Origin: Flavobacterium sp. UBA6721
GTDB lineage: Bacteria > Bacteroidota > Bacteroidia > Flavobacteriales > Flavobacteriaceae
Assembly (NCBI GenBank): GCA_002454195.1
Contig: DKIJ01000001.1
Location: 1-49,547, forward strand
Length of the DNA: 49,547 nt
Direction of reading: 5' to 3'
The translations under genes and the position numbers were made by a program. The notes under the pieces are model-generated. The model was not told where the DNA came from. It saw only the letters and a list, made by a program, of their open reading frames with translations, and did no database searches. Shown here piece after piece: positions 36,950 to 48,480 of the stretch. Every line of letters starts with the position of its first letter. The first letter of the stretch is position 1.

Positions 36950-37344
36950 GGGGTCGACTGGTTTTGACAGCAAGTCGAATTGAACAGTAAGCACGTCGAG
37001 CATTGAGACCTTGCTCGTAAATATAAGATCTCGAACTTTTAAACGGCGAAAATACTTACGCTTTAGCTGCATAATCCGAATTATAGTACGATTACGCCAC
37101 GTCCCTACAAGGTAGGGAAGCTGGATTCTCCTTGAAAGCCTTGGTTTATGGCGGTCAGTACAGGGGAACCGTAAAAATAGACCTAGATTTCTGTTAGCTT
37201 CGGGCAGATTTCGAAAATTAAGAAGCTAAGTAGTATGTGGCTGTTTCTGGCCTAGCATCCTATCGAAAATTCAATCAGGAAATAAGCGTGTAGAAAGCTC
37301 TTTAGTTGCTTGTTTGGACCCGGGTTCGATTCCCGGCGACTCCA
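36950..37344 (+). ncRNA. ssrA: tmRNA (ssrA)
   Basis: The 5' end GGGGTCGACTGGTTTTGACA and the 3' end GGTTCGATTCCCGGCGACTCCA are the diagnostic tRNA-like ends. The acceptor stem is GGGGTCG with CGACTCC (one G-T pair), followed by the discriminator A; CCA is not encoded. The T-arm is CCGGGTTCGATTCCCGG. The tag reading frame at 37045-37074 encodes GENTYALAA and a stop, the Bacteroidota-type degradation tag. It rescues ribosomes stalled on broken mRNAs. The 3' end of ssrA is a common integration site, and an integrase remnant follows directly. Confidence 0.97.
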
Positions 37345-37367
37345 CTAAAACAAATTCAAATTGATTC

Positions 37368-37593: not shown

Positions 37594-38077
37594 ATGAAAC
37601 ACATAATGTCAATACTTTTCTACGTGAAAAGTTCAAAAGCTTCAAAAAATGGCTTACTTCCCATTTATCAAAGAATAACAATTAACGGCACTCGTATTGA
37701 ATTAAGTACATCAAAGTTTGTAGAAAAATCAAAATGGAATGTTACAGCAGGCAAAATTAAAGGGAATTCAGAAGAAGCCAGACTATTAAATAGTTACCTT
37801 GATATTTTAAAAAACAAAGCCTATGAAACAGAAAAATGGATGGTAAACAACAACCAGGAAATTAATGCTCAAACTTTCAAGAATAAATTTTTAGGTATTG
37901 AAGAAAAACAACGTAAACTGATTTTAATTTTTGAAGACCATAACAAACGAATGAAAGACTTAATTAGAAAAAGAATTCTCGATTAACACTTATAAGAAAT
38001 ATGAAACTGCACTATGTCATACAAGAGAATTTCTAAAGTATCAATATTCCGTTAATGAAAAAAACATAATCTTGTAA
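37594..38077 (+). pseudogene. Tyrosine integrase remnant next to ssrA, frameshifted and truncated
   Basis: The first frame (37594-37986, 130 residues) has the Arm-DNA-binding domain of Bacteroidota tyrosine recombinases: ILFYVKSSKASKNGLLPIYQRITINGTR (in part), SKFVEKSKWN, and NSYLDILKNKAYETE. It stops at 37984, but the next frame (from 37985) continues the core SAM-like domain as NTYKKYETALCHTREFLKYQ before a stop at 38075. A one-base loss explains the break. The catalytic domain with the R-H-R-Y residues is missing altogether. It is a decayed insertion at the 3' end of ssrA and cannot be active. Confidence 0.82.
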
Positions 38078-41037: not shown

Positions 41038-41058
41038 GTTATTTTAAATTATTAAATT

Positions 41059-43896
41059 TTAATCATTAAAAAAGGTATCAATAAAATTTAGAAACTTACT
41101 CAAAATAGTGTCCCCTACTTTTGCTCTTTGTAAAATAGAGGGTTGATTTTCCATTACTTCGACTACTTCCTGTTTGGTTGGGATGCGTTGGGTAAATAAG
41201 TAATCTTCGGTTAGTTTTTGAAGTTTTTCTGCGTTTAATTTTTCATCGGTTACGAATTGATTGAAAGCTTTTTGTTGCTCTTCTATCATAAAGGCTGCGT
41301 AACCCTCTTCTACTGATGTGTCGTCTAATAGCGGTAAATTTTCTTCGATAAATCGTGCTATTAATTCTCGTTTGCTACGCAATTTAGCATCACCAGCAAC
41401 TAAGTCTAATATTTCTTTTTGTCTACGTTCTTTTTCCTCTGGGGTTGTTGCCTTTAATTTAGCTAATAATCCTAGTATATAGGTTACCGTAATATCATCA
41501 CGATGAATTAATTCTAATTCAAAATCGACTTCGTTTAATATGGATGTCTTTTCTTTTTTCCCTCTATCGGATAAGTCTAAATATTTTGATTTATAATTAT
41601 CAAATTCCTGCTCTCCTATCTCAATATCCTCAAAAGTAAAATCGACAAATGAAGCAATAATGTTTTTCAAGCGAATGATTTCCCTAAATGCTTTTACAAA
41701 TTCCAGTTCTTCCTCCTCTGACTTCAAATCATCGACTGATTCAAAAGTGGGTGTAATTTCAATTAACTTATCATAAGCTTCATTGATTTCTTTTACATAA
41801 GCATCATAAGGTTTTAGGATAATAACTTCTTTTGCTTTTTTATCTGAAAACAAAGCAATGGCATCATCAGTTGCTTTCTTTAAATTTCTAAAAACGACTA
41901 TATTCCCCTGTGATTTTTTATCTCCCAAAATTCTATTTGTTCTGGAATAGGCTTGAATTAAACCGTGGTATTTTAAATTTTTATCTACAAATAAGGTATT
42001 TAATGACTTACTATCAAATCCGGTTAAAAACATATTTACCACAAACAATAAATCGACTTGTTTGTTACGAACTCTTAGCGCAATGTCTTTGTAATAATTA
42101 TAAAAAGATTGGCTGTCTTTAGTTGTCCAATTGGTTTTAAAAGTAAGATTGTACTCCTCAATATAACTTTCGAGTTTATCCCGTTTATGAAAAGCATTAT
42201 AGGTTTCTTCTTTTTCGGCTACTTCGTTAAAATCCTTTTCGTCATAATCCTCCGTATCGGTAATCATATCATCATTCGCACCAAAACTAAAAATTGTTGC
42301 CGTCTTTAAATCGTGTTTGCCCTCTTGTTTTAATTTCAGGAACAAATCGTAGTATTTAATCAACATATCCACGCTACTTACACAAAACATGGCGGTAAAA
42401 GTTTTGTTTTGCGTTTTAATGGGATGTTGTTGAATAATGTAATTGGTAATTTTCTCGACACGGTCTTTACTTTCTAATAATTCCTGTGTATCGATAGCTT
42501 CAACCTCAATGTCTATTTCGTTTTGCGAATTCTCTTTTTCTTTGTACTTCCCTACATATTCTACAGAGAAACGCAATACATTTTCATCCTTAATCGCATC
42601 GGTAATGACATAGCTGTGTAATTGTTCGCCAAACAAACTTTTAGTGGTTTGATTTTGCTTGTTTTTAGATAAAGCATTTTCAGCAAAAATGGGTGTACCG
42701 GTAAACCCAAACATTTGATAGTTTTCGAAATATTGGGTTATCTTTTTATGTGTGTCACCAAATTGAGAACGGTGGCATTCATCGAAAATAAAGACAATCT
42801 TTTTGTGTTTTAGATCATCCATTGTTTTCAAATGATGTTCTCTCGTTATGGCATTGTATAACTTTTGAATGGTAGTTACAATTAACTTACTGTTATGGTC
42901 TTTGAATTGACGAACTAAATTAGCCGTGTTATTCGTTGGATCAATACAATCGGGTTTAAAGGCATTAAATTCTTTAGCAGTTTGATAATCCAAATCCTGT
43001 CTGTCCACACAAAAAACCACTTTATCCACCTTGGGTAATTGCGATAATATCTGACTGGCTTTGAACGAGGTCAAGGTTTTCCCCGAACCTGTAGTGTGCC
43101 AAATATAACCGTTATGATTGCTGTTTTTAACCTTGTCAATAATACGTTCTACAGCATTAAATTGATACGGACGCAAAACCATTAGCATTTTATCGGAATC
43201 ATGCAAAACGATGTACTTGGTTATCATTTTAGACAAATGACATTTCTCTAAAAAAGTATTGGCAAAATCTTCCAGTTTGGAAATACGCTTGTTGTTTTCG
43301 TCTGTCCAATAAAAAGTTTGTTTGAAGTCCGGTTTTTTATTGCCAAAATTGCTGAAATACTTGGTATTTACTCCGTTACTAATCACAAACAATTGCACAA
43401 AATTAAACAAGCCTGTATTAGCCGAAAAAGAGTGTTTTTGATAACGATTGATTTGGTTATAGGCTTCTTTCAATTCGATGCCTGTTTTCTTTAATTCAAT
43501 TTGAACTAAAGGCAAACCGTTAATTAAAATCGTAACATCGTAGCGGTTTTTATACGTCCCTTCTACAGTAATCTGATTGGTTACCTGATATTGGTTCTGA
43601 CACCAAAAATCCATATTAAGAAACTCCACATAAACCAATTCGTTCTTATCGTTTTTAAAAGCAAACTTATCACGCAGCAATAAAGCTTTTTCAAAAACAT
43701 TATTGGATTTGGTAAGGTGGTTTAGAATTTGCTTGAAATCAGAATCCGAAAACACTTTTTTGTTGTGCTTTTCTAATTGCTTTTTCAAATTAACCAATAA
43801 ATCATCTTCATCTTTAATAATTACTTTATCGTAACCATTTGAAGCCAATTGATTGATTAAATTTTGTTCAAGTATTAATTCGGATTGTGATGTCAT
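41059..43896 (-). CDS. hsdR: Type I restriction enzyme R subunit HsdR
   Basis: A 945-residue HsdR. The N-terminal nuclease site is Asp120 with E134-x-K136 (YDVTILINGLPLVQIELKK, a PD-(D/E)xK arrangement). The superfamily 2 motor has Walker A WHTTGSGKT (about 267-274), DECHRSQ (372-378), and later FTGTP and VDLLFVVNMFLTGFD. It translocates and cleaves unmethylated DNA in complex with HsdM and HsdS. It is separated from hsdS by a three-gene cassette that is not part of standard type I systems. No disruption is seen. Confidence 0.93.
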   Translation of the reverse strand: MTSQSELILEQNLINQLASNGYDKVIIKDEDDLLVNLKKQLEKHNKKVFSDSDFKQILNHLTKSNNVFEKALLLRDKFAFKNDKNELVYVEFLNMDFWCQNQYQVTNQITVEGTYKNRYDVTILINGLPLVQIELKKTGIELKEAYNQINRYQKHSFSANTGLFNFVQLFVISNGVNTKYFSNFGNKKPDFKQTFYWTDENNKRISKLEDFANTFLEKCHLSKMITKYIVLHDSDKMLMVLRPYQFNAVERIIDKVKNSNHNGYIWHTTGSGKTLTSFKASQILSQLPKVDKVVFCVDRQDLDYQTAKEFNAFKPDCIDPTNNTANLVRQFKDHNSKLIVTTIQKLYNAITREHHLKTMDDLKHKKIVFIFDECHRSQFGDTHKKITQYFENYQMFGFTGTPIFAENALSKNKQNQTTKSLFGEQLHSYVITDAIKDENVLRFSVEYVGKYKEKENSQNEIDIEVEAIDTQELLESKDRVEKITNYIIQQHPIKTQNKTFTAMFCVSSVDMLIKYYDLFLKLKQEGKHDLKTATIFSFGANDDMITDTEDYDEKDFNEVAEKEETYNAFHKRDKLESYIEEYNLTFKTNWTTKDSQSFYNYYKDIALRVRNKQVDLLFVVNMFLTGFDSKSLNTLFVDKNLKYHGLIQAYSRTNRILGDKKSQGNIVVFRNLKKATDDAIALFSDKKAKEVIILKPYDAYVKEINEAYDKLIEITPTFESVDDLKSEEEELEFVKAFREIIRLKNIIASFVDFTFEDIEIGEQEFDNYKSKYLDLSDRGKKEKTSILNEVDFELELIHRDDITVTYILGLLAKLKATTPEEKERRQKEILDLVAGDAKLRSKRELIARFIEENLPLLDDTSVEEGYAAFMIEEQQKAFNQFVTDEKLNAEKLQKLTEDYLFTQRIPTKQEVVEVMENQPSILQRAKVGDTILSKFLNFIDTFFND

Positions 43897-43963
43897 ATTT
43901 ATTATAAAAAAAACCTTGCCAAAATTGACAAGGTAAATATATTGTTCTTTTTGTTTTTATCAA

Positions 43964-44395
43964 TTATTTAATTTCAAAAACTACATCTTTTTCTACTAAA
44001 TTACTCACATTAAAAGTTGGAATCATCAATCTGTTAAAAGGTGTATTTTCAGTTTTGGCATGCAACACACCTCTAGCAGTACCCACAGTAACAACACAAA
44101 GATGTTCTAAAAAATGCTTTGGCAAAATAATTTTATCAGTTGTCATTAGGTCTTTTTCCCAAGATTTTGGTTCAACATCAAAATTGCATACCACTTTTAA
44201 AGTAACAAGTGGGCTATTTTGATGAAGAAATTGAAAATTCATTTTACATGATACTACTTTGTTTTCAGTGTTAACAGCAAATTGAAGTTCTGATTTAAGA
44301 TCATGGGTTTCAGGAATGTTATCTACCTCAAAAGTTGCAAATTGTTCGGTTACGATATTCCTTAATCTAAAACTGATATTTTTTTTAGCTTCCAT
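43964..44395 (-). CDS. SecB-like chaperone of a TAC-type cassette (putative)
   Basis: A 143-residue protein of SecB-like appearance: an N-terminal FRLRNIVTEQFATFEV strand, a central region of alternating strands (VVSCKMNFQFL, LVTLKVVCNFDV), and a C-terminal LEHLCVVTVGTARGVLHAKT with IPTFNVSNLV. The last part resembles the helix and P-x-x-N-x end of SecB. In TAC systems (for example Mycobacterium tuberculosis Rv1957) a SecB-like protein protects the antitoxin. Here it starts 3 bp after the XRE-type antitoxin gene, which fits that role. The similarity is weak by eye, and another function is possible. Confidence 0.6.
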   Translation of the reverse strand: MEAKKNISFRLRNIVTEQFATFEVDNIPETHDLKSELQFAVNTENKVVSCKMNFQFLHQNSPLVTLKVVCNFDVEPKSWEKDLMTTDKIILPKHFLEHLCVVTVGTARGVLHAKTENTPFNRLMIPTFNVSNLVEKDVVFEIK

Positions 44396-44398
44396 TAT

Positions 44399-44878
44399 TT
44401 AAGATTCGCAGTATTCTAAAGTGGAACATTCTACTTCATTGATATAGTCATCAATAGGAATTAGTTTTATCTCTTTTTCAGCTACCATTGGTTTCTCAAT
44501 AGTATCTAAATAGTTGTGTACTTGATTCGTTATTGTAACCATATTTGTTGAACTAATAATAACACTATCGTTATTCTCGTAGATACACATTAGTTTAATA
44601 CCTAAGGCTTTTTCAATTTTGCCAATAGTAAAGAACCCAAAATTTTCTGAACCTTTGACCCATTTATTTACAGTTTGAGGTGTTACCTCCAAAGCATCTG
44701 CTAAATCTTTTTGGGATAATTTCTTCTCTCTAAGTGTTCTTAAAATACGCACGGCAACTTGTTGAGAATAACGCAAACCTTCTTTATTCTCAAATCTTTT
44801 GTTGCTTTCTTCTATCCATTTGCTAGGAGTTTTAGAAACCAAAGCTTCTAATTTTTTACTCATTTCTTGGCTTTTCAT
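44399..44878 (-). CDS. XRE-family antitoxin-like regulator
   Basis: A 159-residue protein. Residues 46-95 are a Cro/CI-type helix-turn-helix, with RTLREKKLSQKDLADALEVT, then QTVNKWVKGSENF, then IGKIEKALGIKL. After it comes a roughly 60-residue tail containing NMVTITNQVHNYLDTI, far longer than in a minimal antitoxin. In TAC systems such a tail is the chaperone-addiction region bound by the SecB-like protein. The neighbouring genes, a possible RelE-like toxin upstream and the SecB-like gene 3 bp downstream, are in the toxin-antitoxin-chaperone order. The HTH is certain; the TAC role is inference. Confidence 0.75.
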   Translation of the reverse strand: MKSQEMSKKLEALVSKTPSKWIEESNKRFENKEGLRYSQQVAVRILRTLREKKLSQKDLADALEVTPQTVNKWVKGSENFGFFTIGKIEKALGIKLMCIYENNDSVIISSTNMVTITNQVHNYLDTIEKPMVAEKEIKLIPIDDYINEVECSTLEYCES

Positions 44879-44927
44879 AATTTTTATTTTTTTTTTAGCG
44901 CAGTATGGGAATTGTAGTGTTTAATTT

Positions 44928-45494
44928 TTAAAGAGTCATATCTATATAACCGAAATCATCTTGTTCTAATAGACCATTTTCTTTTAAATATGCTGCTGTG
45001 ATTTTTAGTTTATCCAATTCGATTGCAGTGTGATTTCGTTCATTCATAGTTTCTGTTAGTTTTATGGCACTTCCAGAAACTACGAAACAATCCGGGCTGA
45101 TGCGAACGGCATATAATCTGAGCCAAGATTTATCATTCGTACCATAAGCTTTGCTTTCTTGTAATGTAAAGTTTTGATCATTTATATGTAGTTGATTAAA
45201 AACTAAATCTTGTAAAGAATCTCCATTTTTAAAGTTTCCTATTTTAGCAATTTTCCTTACTGAATTTTCAAAAATTTCTGCTTCTTCTATAGTTGCAAAA
45301 ATAGCTTCTTCAATAGTTATATTGCCATAAAAACCCGATTGTAAATCTTTTTTATTGCTTTCAAAAAACGCTTCCAAATACTCCGTATCGTTCCAGTTTC
45401 TGAAAGCCAACGTAAATTCATCACAGTCATTGGGTTCAAACTGAACCGCCAACAACTTCTGTTTTACAATGGCAAATATAGTATCTATTTTCAT
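44928..45494 (-). CDS. Putative RelE/HigB-like toxin of the TAC-type cassette
   Basis: A 188-residue protein of unknown family. The C-terminal part (KSWLRLYAVRI, then CFVVSGSAIKLTETM, then ERNHTAIELDKLK) resembles the pattern of RelE/HigB-fold toxins, in which a basic strand is followed by a K-x-T segment. The N-terminal half (NWNDTEYLEAFFESNKKDLQ and EEAIFATIEEAE) looks helical and is not part of a minimal RelE fold. It lies 35 bp after hsdS and 49 bp before the XRE gene. No catalytic residues can be assigned with confidence, so toxin is a prediction from shape and position. Confidence 0.5.
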   Translation of the reverse strand: MKIDTIFAIVKQKLLAVQFEPNDCDEFTLAFRNWNDTEYLEAFFESNKKDLQSGFYGNITIEEAIFATIEEAEIFENSVRKIAKIGNFKNGDSLQDLVFNQLHINDQNFTLQESKAYGTNDKSWLRLYAVRISPDCFVVSGSAIKLTETMNERNHTAIELDKLKITAAYLKENGLLEQDDFGYIDMTL

Positions 45495-45529
45495 AAAATC
45501 AACTTATAAGCTTATTTTTTAACTTTAAT

Positions 45530-46717
45530 TTACACAAATAGTTGCTGCAATAATCCCTTTTTATACTCCTGTGTGGCTTCGTGCACCTCAGCCACCGCTG
45601 CGATTTTTTCATCAATAGCCGATAAAAAATTGGCGATTTTGGTTTGTTCAGTTTTGCTCTTCGACAATTTTAAAACGAAATTTTTTAAATCCTTTTTTTG
45701 AATATTTGGTAAACCTGAACCAACTCGCAAAGCCATTATCTGGTTTTGATTAAATTTTAATAATTGAAAAATATAATTTTTATCAAAAGATTGATTTTCC
45801 AAAATATCAACAGAATAACAGTGTCCACCACACCAAAACTTTGTTTCAATAAAATTAACATAACCGCAAGAATTACCACCCTCACTTATTATTATTGTAT
45901 TTTCATTTCTATTAAATTTATCAGTATAACCCGACGGCTCTATTCCTCCACTTATTGATGGATAAATATCGAAATCATTTAAATCATCTTTATTTAGTTG
46001 GCTACCTTTGTTAATCTCAGTTATTTCCCCCAAACTCTTCTCTTCCCACTCTTCAAAATCATTACCATCATCATCTCTAAACCTTATTTCTTGATTGAAG
46101 ATTTTTTGCATGATACCTTTTTTGTATTCTTCTAAAAGGGATTTTTTCTCTTTTAAAAGATTTAGTTTTTCATCTACGGCGGTGAGGAAATTGGCGATGC
46201 GGGTTTGTTCTTGGAGGGAGGGAATATAGACTTCCAAGTCTTTAATACTTTGAAAATTTAATCCTTCTCGACCACTTCCAGTCGACAGATTCTTTAATCT
46301 ATTTTGTCCATTTTCCGATGCTAAAATTGACTGTATATAGTTTGAATTATTTTCTTCATTAAGTCTTATAATACAAACGTGTTGATTTACATTTCCTATA
46401 GTAAAATCATTTGGAACAACACAACTTCTACCTAATGATGCTCCTGTAATGTTCAATAAGATATCATTAGCTAATACAATACTGTTTTTCATTGTATTAT
46501 TAGTCTTTTCATCAATGAAAGTAGAATTTTCGTAAGATAATTTACTGTCTAATACATTCTGACTTCTAATAAATAGAATCCCATTTTCAGTATAAACTGA
46601 CTCACCACCTAACGGTGTCTTACCACTATTAATTTTAATAGCAATACCACCTATTTTATTTTTACCCCAATCTCCTTTAAACTCAGGAAACCTCAATTTT
46701 GGTTGTACTATTTCCAT
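45530..46717 (-). CDS. hsdS: Type I restriction specificity subunit HsdS
   Basis: A 395-residue HsdS with two target-recognition domains. The first starts PKLRFPEFKGDWGKNKIGGI. Each TRD ends in the conserved spacer: LQEQTRIANFLTAVDEKLNL near 175-195 and KTEQTKIANFLSAIDEKIA near 360-380, followed by a helix ending in YKKGIMQKIF or YKKGLLQQLF. It decides the DNA sequence recognised. It lies 1 bp from the hsdM stop. No inverted repeats or partial hsdS genes that would allow shuffling were seen nearby. Confidence 0.93.
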   Translation of the reverse strand: MEIVQPKLRFPEFKGDWGKNKIGGIAIKINSGKTPLGGESVYTENGILFIRSQNVLDSKLSYENSTFIDEKTNNTMKNSIVLANDILLNITGASLGRSCVVPNDFTIGNVNQHVCIIRLNEENNSNYIQSILASENGQNRLKNLSTGSGREGLNFQSIKDLEVYIPSLQEQTRIANFLTAVDEKLNLLKEKKSLLEEYKKGIMQKIFNQEIRFRDDDGNDFEEWEEKSLGEITEINKGSQLNKDDLNDFDIYPSISGGIEPSGYTDKFNRNENTIIISEGGNSCGYVNFIETKFWCGGHCYSVDILENQSFDKNYIFQLLKFNQNQIMALRVGSGLPNIQKKDLKNFVLKLSKSKTEQTKIANFLSAIDEKIAAVAEVHEATQEYKKGLLQQLFV

Positions 46718-46718
46718 A

Positions 46719-48311
46719 TTAAAAAGGTGTTTTAATATTTAACTCTTGACAAAATGAAGCAATAGTATCATCAACAGCTTGCATTTTAGAATCAATACTT
46801 TGTATTCTATCAGCAACCGCGTTTACATCAATAGAAACAGCTTCTTCAAAAGTATTTACATAACGAGGAATATTTAAATTATAATCGTTGGCTTTTACTT
46901 CTTCGAGCGTAGCAATGTTCGAGTATTTTTCTATTACCTCACGGTTTTGGTATGTTGCAACAATCTTATCAATGTGTTCTTCCCGTAGTACATTTTGATT
47001 TTTTACTTTTTCAAAATCGTTACTGGCATCAATAAACAAAATGTTTTCTGGTATTTCCTTGCATTTTTTCAAAACCAAAATACAGGTCGGGATACTGGTG
47101 CCGTAAAACAAGTTTGCCGGTAATCCAATAATAGCATCAATATAATTGCGGTCTTCAATTAGGTATTTACGAATATGTCCTTCGGCAGCACCACGAAATA
47201 AAACACCATGAGGAGCAATACAAGCCATGATACCATTATCATCTAAATGATGTACCATGTGCTGTATAAAAGCAAAGTCGGCTTTGGTTCCTGGTGCTAA
47301 TCTTCCGTATTGTGAAAAACGGTCGTCATTAGAAAATAATGGGTTGGCAGACCATTTTGCAGAAAACGGAGGATTAGCGACAATTGCCTCAAATTTTAAT
47401 CCGTCGTGTTGTGGTCGTTCTAAAGTATCTTCGTGCTTAATGTCAAATTTATGATAATTGACATCGTGTAGAATCATGTTCATTCGCGCTAGGTTGTAAG
47501 TAGTACGGTTTTGTTCCTGTCCATAAAAAAAGCCTACATCCTCTACTTCTCTGGCTACACGAAGTAACAACGAGCCGCTACCACAAGTTGGGTCATAAAC
47601 TGATTTTAGTTTGCTTTTGCGTGTCGTAACAATTTTAGCCAAGATACTTGATACTTGCTGTGGTGTATAAAATTCACCTGCTTTTTGTCCAGCTCCTGCC
47701 GCAAATTGCGCAATCAGGTATTCGTATGCATCCCCTAACACATCGCCTTCGGTATTGTCTAAATCAAAATCGATTTCATCCAGTGCTGTCAGGATTTTTA
47801 CAATGACATCGTTTCGGTCTTTGGTGGTACGACCTATTTTGGTTGAATTTAAATCGATATCATAAAACAGGTTGTCAAAGTCGTCCTGACTATCAGAACC
47901 CATCGTGCTTTTTTCGATTGAGTTTAACACATTGGCTAAGTCTTCCAGAATAAAGGTGCTTTGAATTTGTTCTTCGTCATCTTCATTAATGACTTTGGCA
48001 TTTCCTTTTTTAGCCAGATTCGAGAACAACTCTGATGGTTTCAAGAAATATCCTAAAGCATCTACTGTGGCCTCTTTTAAGGCTGCTAAAATCTCTTTTC
48101 CCTCTGCTGAATTTTCATCAATTTGATTAAATACCAAACCATCAGGTTTTAAAAACTCATTGGCTTTTTTCTCTAATTTCTCTGAAAGGTATTTGTAGAA
48201 AATAAATCCTAAAATATAATCCTGAAATTGATTAGCATTGATTTTTCCACGTAAAATATTAGCAATAGCCCATAATTGGGATTCTAAGAGTTTCTTTTGT
48301 TCGTCTGACAT
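46719..48311 (-). CDS. hsdM: Type I restriction-modification N6-adenine methyltransferase HsdM
   Basis: A 530-residue HsdM. The N-terminal helical domain (residues 1-195) contains FQDYILGFIFYKYLSEKLEK. The SAM site is SVYDPTCGSGSLLLR (Asp240 onward), GEFYTPQQVSSILAKIV precedes it, and the catalytic motif is NPPF at 313-316. It methylates adenine in the HsdS-defined site, and with HsdS forms the modification enzyme. It is the first gene of the operon; its promoter lies in the 237-bp spacer shared with the divergent lipoprotein remnant. Confidence 0.95.
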   Translation of the reverse strand: MSDEQKKLLESQLWAIANILRGKINANQFQDYILGFIFYKYLSEKLEKKANEFLKPDGLVFNQIDENSAEGKEILAALKEATVDALGYFLKPSELFSNLAKKGNAKVINEDDEEQIQSTFILEDLANVLNSIEKSTMGSDSQDDFDNLFYDIDLNSTKIGRTTKDRNDVIVKILTALDEIDFDLDNTEGDVLGDAYEYLIAQFAAGAGQKAGEFYTPQQVSSILAKIVTTRKSKLKSVYDPTCGSGSLLLRVAREVEDVGFFYGQEQNRTTYNLARMNMILHDVNYHKFDIKHEDTLERPQHDGLKFEAIVANPPFSAKWSANPLFSNDDRFSQYGRLAPGTKADFAFIQHMVHHLDDNGIMACIAPHGVLFRGAAEGHIRKYLIEDRNYIDAIIGLPANLFYGTSIPTCILVLKKCKEIPENILFIDASNDFEKVKNQNVLREEHIDKIVATYQNREVIEKYSNIATLEEVKANDYNLNIPRYVNTFEEAVSIDVNAVADRIQSIDSKMQAVDDTIASFCQELNIKTPF

Positions 48312-48480
48312 TGTTTTATAGGCATTTTTTGAATATTGGCTAAAGTAGTTATAAACTTATATATTTTGAAACGAACTACTTTTCTTTTTTTAGTAAAAAC
48401 TAAAAATTCCAACTTGAACCAGTTCTAGAAAAATTTAGGATTTTGTAAACATCGTATAAGAAACGGCTTCTTTACCTTTG

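Follow-up and report, generated by a model that had tools for sequence, protein, structure and literature searches.

A HigB-type toxin-antitoxin-chaperone module, by its anatomy, in the exchangeable hsdS-hsdR interval of a Flavobacterium type I restriction-modification operon

Toxin-antitoxin-chaperone (TAC) systems are the closest described relatives of the genes analysed here. In the HigB1-HigA1-Rv1957 system of M. tuberculosis, the genes follow the order toxin, tailed XRE antitoxin and SecB-like chaperone, and deletion of the addiction tail is reported to free the antitoxin from its need for the chaperone (PMC5105189). HigA1 ends in Val-Ala and CmdA, the antitoxin of CmdTAC (PD-T4-9; PMC9519451), ends in LAA, both ends being described as ClpX signals (PMC8165232, PMC11618068). 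For CmdTAC, the T4 capsid protein is described as outcompeting the antitoxin in binding to the chaperone, and the antitoxin as being degraded by ClpP (PMC11618068), and a lambda tail protein has been reported to act likewise on HigBAC (PMC11980606).

Embedded genes in hsd operons are also already known, namely prrC, rlo and darTG2 (PMC3874165, PMC12707154, PMC5183652, PMC12255303). The accessory gene prrC is described inside the type IC operon of EcoprrI (PMC3874165), the rlo open reading frames (ORFs) of Campylobacter between hsdR and hsdS (PMC5183652), and the toxin-antitoxin pair darTG2 between hsdS and hsdR in the RRDM island of EPEC, at a site that its authors regard as a potential recombination hotspot (PMC12255303). 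In addition, the PDC families of predicted defence candidates were reported as found by guilt-by-embedding (PMC10855318, PMC12988326).

The DNA analysed here (the window) is a stretch of 49,547 nucleotides from Flavobacterium sp. UBA6721, which carries a type I restriction-modification (R-M) operon with the following features:

46719..48311, minus strand: hsdM, methyltransferase subunit (TIGR00497 above cut-off)
45530..46717, minus strand: hsdS, specificity subunit (Methylase_S, E 1.6e-42)
45530-45649, minus strand: slot arm on the upstream side, formed by the final ~120 nt of hsdS, which are conserved (bin identities)
45501..45513, minus strand: near-palindrome AAGCTTATAAGTT upstream of the toxin start, a candidate operator for the antitoxin, carried by the cassette
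44928..45494, minus strand: toxin candidate, 188 aa, predicted HigB/RelE-type fold; conserved core SWLR-YA-RI ... VVSG-AIKL
44399..44878, minus strand: antitoxin candidate, 159 aa, XRE/HigA-type helix-turn-helix (HTH) plus C-terminal tail (HTH_3, E 2e-11; PADLOC PDC-M64C, E 1.8e-17)
44402..44569, minus strand: antitoxin tail, candidate chaperone-addiction (ChAD) region, 56 residues past the HTH core, ending in CES, no Ala end
43964..44395, minus strand: SecB-like chaperone candidate, 143 aa
43913..43934, minus strand: hairpin with a T run, terminator-like, separating the chaperone gene from hsdR
41059..43896, minus strand: hsdR, restriction subunit (TIGR00348 above cut-off), its 5' end being the downstream arm of the slot (bin identities)
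41038..48429, no strand assigned: 7.4-kb island, the complete hsdM-S-TAC-R operon, missing in a same-species genome

The gene order on the minus strand is thus hsdM-hsdS-TOX-HTH-SecB-hsdR. The three same-strand genes between hsdS and hsdR (188, 159 and 143 aa, the central one encoding the XRE protein) are separated by 49 nt (toxin/antitoxin) and 3 nt (antitoxin/chaperone), just as an earlier note on this sequence had described them; hsdS ends 35 nt upstream of the trio and hsdR starts 67 nt downstream. The identities of HsdM, HsdS and HsdR were backed by Pfam, NCBIfam and PADLOC. The profile search proposed in the earlier note placed the XRE protein in HTH_3 and linked the trio to PDC-M64, but neither Pfam nor NCBIfam had a family whose cut-off the 188-aa or the 143-aa protein passed. 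All three genes are conserved, with pairwise dN/dS of ~0.07-0.28 (60 comparisons, 20 per gene), and so is their order among relatives.

The predicted structure of the 188-aa protein had HigBA of S. pneumoniae as its best Foldseek match, followed by the M. tuberculosis TAC toxin, which points to a known toxin-antitoxin fold of the HigB type, with an E-value of just 0.028 and five models spanning pLDDT 57-79. Sequence searches recovered 85 homologues at E <= 0.001, with the toxin present in 24/299 genomes of the genus and family records spanning Bacteroidota, Chlorobi and Ignavibacteria among the best 80 of 509 loci; a PDB sequence search found no relative of the toxin. Residues R126 and K145, candidates for the basic catalytic residues of a HigB-type mRNase, are invariant in 25 alignment rows, and by eye also in five toxins of 168-172 aa, and would correspond to residues described for M. 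tuberculosis HigB (PMC9098466).

For the 143-aa protein, the predicted fold is that of SecB and the top Foldseek match was Rv1957, a TAC chaperone, together with its addiction peptide, so that a dedicated chaperone gene of predicted SecB fold adjoins the antitoxin gene across the 3-nt spacer. There were 313 homologues at E <= 0.001 (120 of them listed). The Pfam SecB profile PF02556 did not match this protein at E-values up to 1, nor did it match anywhere in its own genome (73.7% complete), and a PDB sequence search with the chaperone gave a single chance match (E 0.68). The SecB-like and RelE-like assignments made in the earlier note hold at the level of predicted fold.

The long C-terminal tail noticed on the XRE protein is also there, 56 residues past the HTH core. 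Tail lengths were surveyed in 80 loci with toxin relatives (the best 80 of 509), many of the two-gene loci being from Dyadobacter; L022 and L042, in which no antitoxin was found, were dropped, leaving 78 loci. A SecB-like gene follows the antitoxin in 43/78 of them, and in all 43 the antitoxin tail extends 44-78 residues past the HTH core, whereas without a SecB-like gene the tail was shorter than 40 residues in 32/35 loci (<=30 in 31/35) and at least 40 in 3/35; with the window counted in, the tallies of tail against SecB-like gene become 44/0/3/32. SecB presence switches 12 times on the toxin tree, and five independent pairs on supported branches gave ~4.3 concordant and 0 opposed cases for tail against SecB (median p 0.125). 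Such co-occurrence is the pattern expected for a chaperone-addiction tail, for which the 56-aa extension of the window's antitoxin, a protein of known type, is a candidate. An Ala C-terminus was found in 29/43 antitoxins with a SecB-like gene, 4/35 without it and 33/562 ORFs of at least 250 aa, a weak association when independent pairs were compared (~2.3 concordant, 0.1 opposed, median p 0.5); neither the antitoxin of the window, where the ClpX-type degron (a common but not strictly defining TAC trait) is absent, nor those of its close clade have an Ala end. The natural two-gene and three-gene versions, found side by side, lend themselves directly to examining how a toxin pair gains chaperone addiction.

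By anatomy, that is, by gene order, predicted folds and tail/chaperone co-occurrence, the trio is a TAC, as the earlier note had proposed, of the HigB type. It shares with the M. tuberculosis system the order of toxin, tailed XRE antitoxin and SecB-like chaperone and the predicted folds, but differs from it in that the solved proteins of that system have no sequence match with the trio, the toxin has 188 aa with extra helices ahead of the core, the antitoxin lacks the Val-Ala end and the genes are embedded in an hsd operon. Profiles of the PADLOC predicted defence candidate PDC-M64B/C matched all three proteins, the toxin weakly (chaperone 2.2e-9, XRE 1.8e-17, toxin 6e-4 over the 45 residues 122-166 only; E-values without PADLOC's own cut-offs). 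PrrC differs from the trio in being an anticodon nuclease under the control of the R-M enzyme, and the rlo genes belong to other families. In the case of darTG2, the likeness is restricted to a toxin-antitoxin in the same slot, as it is described as a two-gene, DNA-ADP-ribosylating, RptR-controlled system with no chaperone (PMC12255303). CmdTAC is also a TAC with a SecB-like chaperone, but its toxin is described as an mRNA ADP-ribosyltransferase (PMC11618068) and the chaperones are only weakly similar, the alignment of the window's chaperone family against three CmdC proteins giving an hhalign probability of 23 (E 9e-4). This analysis adds a HigB-type TAC family that Pfam and NCBIfam leave unnamed.

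The contents of the hsdS-hsdR interval (the slot) were surveyed in every HsdR row with E = 0 from the 299 genomes of the genus (57 rows, window aside) plus the partial locus L198; L144, in which hsdS was not found, was left out, giving 57 slots. A gap of more than 300 nt separates hsdS from hsdR in 53/57 loci vs. hsdM from hsdS in 12/52. Recognisable defence cargo was found in 29 slots, a tyrosine recombinase together with an hsdS copy in inverted orientation in 10, other ORFs in 13 and no ORF of at least 90 aa in 5. The slot ORFs form 43 clusters, three being those of the trio. For 21 of the remaining 40, one representative was compared with Pfam and/or PADLOC (20 proteins in each case), and its name was extended to the whole cluster. 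The HigB-type TAC occupies 8/57 slots (9/58 counting the window), in two clades, with second-clade toxins 28-32% identical to that of the window. Other cargo comprised Fic (8), PDC-M04 (5), CmdTAC (3), PD-Lambda-2 (2), PDC-M15 (2) and, in one locus each, AbiD, GmrSD, PDC-S11 and PDC-S22. CmdTAC was identified by a PADLOC profile in L148 and by clustering with L148 in L151 and L198; these loci also encode a 78-aa partner.

Housing of the cassette in an hsd operon is not peculiar to the window, as the hsdM-S-(TAC)-R arrangement recurs in 8/57 related loci; outside the survey, the named Bacteroidales locus L005 has hsdM, hsdS and the trio, with hsdR 1.7 kb further on. The survey of hsd loci that the earlier note had called for found the same trio conserved in those eight, but unrelated genes in the same slot of others. 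The claim that no TAC had been described within an hsdMSR operon needs qualification: it is weakened by the published darTG2 toxin-antitoxin (PMC12255303), by PDC-M64 and by the three CmdTAC slots, but the open-licence PMC literature yielded no description of a HigB-type TAC in an hsd slot, nor of hsdS or hsdR stubs of the kind reported below.

Several loci of the survey have their own peculiarities. In L198 (809-5518; a contig shared with L003, Flavobacterium sp. UBA8409), a HigB-type trio, an hsdS 3' stub and CmdTAC stand in tandem, which makes two unrelated TACs. In L183 (11715-13176), the trio lies directly after hsdR and not before it, the slot itself being occupied by PDC-M15-like genes. 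In ten loci (L169, L174 and L188-L195), hsdR is preceded by a second hsdS in inverted orientation and a gene of the tyrosine recombinase type, an arrangement that resembles invertible specificity switches; these loci form one clade on the HsdR tree. A recurrent slot gene family (L164, L168, L170, L172, L173, L188, L189) gave a weak Y1/IS200-transposase match in one scanned representative. The slot families C8 (L158, L163, L181, L182) and C16 (L176, L180), with no Pfam or PADLOC match in the tested representative, are candidates for new defence genes, and inspection of the hsdS-hsdR interval provides a simple search rule for others.

The earlier note had suggested that the trio could guard the hsd operon, through an abortive response if the locus or host translation is disturbed. 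In a PrrC-like form of this reading, the TAC would be silenced by the type I enzyme, or monitor it, and fire once a phage disables restriction. There is a precedent in prrC, which is reported to lie within a type IC operon and to encode a nuclease that becomes active upon inhibition of the enzyme (PMC3874165, PMC12707154), and an Hsd match was found near 13/43 trio loci vs. 0/35 two-gene relatives, as counted by BLAST against the window's proteins in loci of unequal length, with kinship uncorrected and distant Hsd proteins liable to be missed. Against it, the remaining 30/43 trio loci had no Hsd match in the fetched stretch, the HsdRs beside the TAC are just ~55-65% identical to that of the window, and the 8 TAC rows are scattered over the 57-row HsdR tree, where they need 8 changes, so that the fixed coupling to one R-M enzyme that characterises PrrC was not found. 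Moreover, HsdR pairs ~97-99% identical have differing cargo (L150/L153, 99.0%; L153/L154, 98.8%; L184/L186, 98.5%; L147/L148, 96.8%); the closest pair of all, L140/L141 (99.8%), has the same cargo. The dedicated-guard reading was downgraded on these grounds, the cargo swaps and the scattered TAC, and such a role is now quite improbable, because the partner hsd genes keep changing. The TAC-hsd association is real, but it is not a fixed partnership.

The boundaries of the exchanged segments were compared in 14 pairs. Identity across the final ~120 nt of hsdS (40-97% in bins of 30 nt), ending at the stop codon, was seen in 13/14, the exception being L170/L181, and it was back at the hsdR start in 10/14; in the other four it did not return at once, and the hsdR starts seem to have been set too early in L150, L152 and L165. 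HsdS also differs in most of the near-identical HsdR pairs, and L150 and L154 have the last 300 nt of hsdS in common with different cargo. Remnants of both genes were also detected. At E 2e-7 or better, stubs of the hsdS 3' end that reach the stop codon separate groups of ORFs in L198, L173 and L171 and occur three times after hsdS in L145. A shuffled-slot control gave no stub match at E <= 1e-4; a weaker hsdS stub in L185 (E 0.001) falls outside this threshold. Stubs of the hsdR 5' end were found in L173 (17 codons) and L185 (39 codons). In L196, an orphan TAC with no Hsd match in 18 kb, ~55 codons of a broken hsdS 3' end precede the TAC. The window's own slot has no hsdS stub (best match chance-like, E 0.003, 29% identity), and upstream of orphan TACs such stubs are generally absent: in 80 upstream stretches, matches at E <= 0.01 were found only in L002, L003 and L005, which have an intact hsdS, and in L196.

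Flank comparisons in 18 pairs were mixed, as L150, L153 and L154 have the upstream flank in common and different cargo, whereas in L147/L148 and most other pairs the flanks differ as well as the cargo; thus, both cargo swap in place and movement of whole loci seem to occur. As related operons hold other defence genes in the slot, the hsd operon seems to carry anti-virus cassettes that can replace one another. We lean, by a modest measure, towards the view that the hsdS tail and the hsdR head form a general cassette-exchange platform. The type I R-M operons of Flavobacterium would then serve as vehicles for complete defence modules, two unrelated TAC families among them, which recombination at the conserved final ~120 nt of hsdS and at the hsdR start would swap and stack, the cassettes keeping their own control signals. 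If so, the R-M operon would be a mobile, updatable defence rack. These data indicate how embedded defence genes may enter or leave a type I R-M operon, with the stubs as a record of exchange, and would help to account for the success of guilt by embedding.

The operon also moves as a whole. In a same-species genome all of it (window 41038-48429) is missing and 64 bp stand in its place. Toxin-antitoxin modules can stabilise DNA, and with the presence of the 7.4-kb hsd island varying within the species, the TAC might serve to addict the cell to it, killing those that lose the island. This is unlikely, as much of the other slot cargo (Fic, AbiD, GmrSD) is non-addictive in type, 5/57 slots have no ORF of at least 90 aa, and the TAC itself is frequently exchanged. 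The lack of an Hsd match in the fetched stretch of most trio loci would also suit a general stress TAC with no role in defence, captured by chance in a recombination-prone slot, and a link to stress has been described for the M. tuberculosis TAC (PMC8165232). However, slot cargo is rich in defence genes (29/57 loci by cluster naming), and CmdTAC and MqsRAC are reported to be anti-phage (PMC9519451, PMC11618068), which makes a chance capture very doubtful.

The trio is probably a HigB-type TAC anti-phage module, housed as an exchangeable cassette between hsdS and hsdR of a type I R-M operon. The best reading is that this cassette would act abortively, through capture of its chaperone, and not as a guard of its own R-M system. 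By analogy with the TACs already studied, the SecB-like protein would grip the antitoxin tail and shield the antitoxin from protease; a phage structural protein produced during infection would capture the chaperone, the antitoxin would then be lost, and the HigB-like toxin would cleave mRNA on ribosomes, arresting the infected cell. The TAC may in this way provide a second line after failed restriction.

Candidate signals carried by the cassette lie on both sides of the trio. The sequence TATAAGTTGATT, part of the near-palindrome, stands ahead of the toxin start in 10/11 genus trios inspected, including the orphan L196, with a variant in L183; these 11 trios come from the 24 toxin-positive genomes of the genus. 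Motifs of the TATAAGTT type, chosen after the genus set had been viewed, occur upstream of 26/78 toxin relatives (best 80 of 509 loci, 2 dropped; L002 and L003 are the same loci as L147 and L198) vs. 3.0 expected by mononucleotide shuffling. The hairpin after the chaperone gene is also present in L147, with a paired change of G-C to A-T, and in L166, and is degenerate in L196 and L198. It is not general, as a terminator-like site within 150 nt past the SecB-like gene was found in 4/43 trio loci; 6/57 rows have such a site in the 96 nt that precede hsdR, three of them with other cargo, and the terminator scan of the region gave 5 sites vs. 3.8 expected, not significant alone. The Fic-carrying loci L140, L141 and L143 have, by eye, a different inverted repeat before hsdR, with no T run. 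Promoter scans of the window were uninformative by number, with 6 matches to the Bacteroidetes consensus vs. 7.1 expected and 34 sigma-70 matches vs. 33.2 expected. Upstream motif and hairpin together suggest a self-contained cassette, which would supply its own operator and, in the window's clade, also a terminator, being self-regulated and not driven solely by the hsd promoter.

The position of the hairpin just before hsdR raises the question of whether hsdR has its own promoter or is reached by read-through. Elsewhere in the window, a tmRNA gene with the tag GENTYALAA was found at 36950-37345, and beside it a 130-aa ORF (37594-37986) that by eye resembles an integrase N-terminal remnant.
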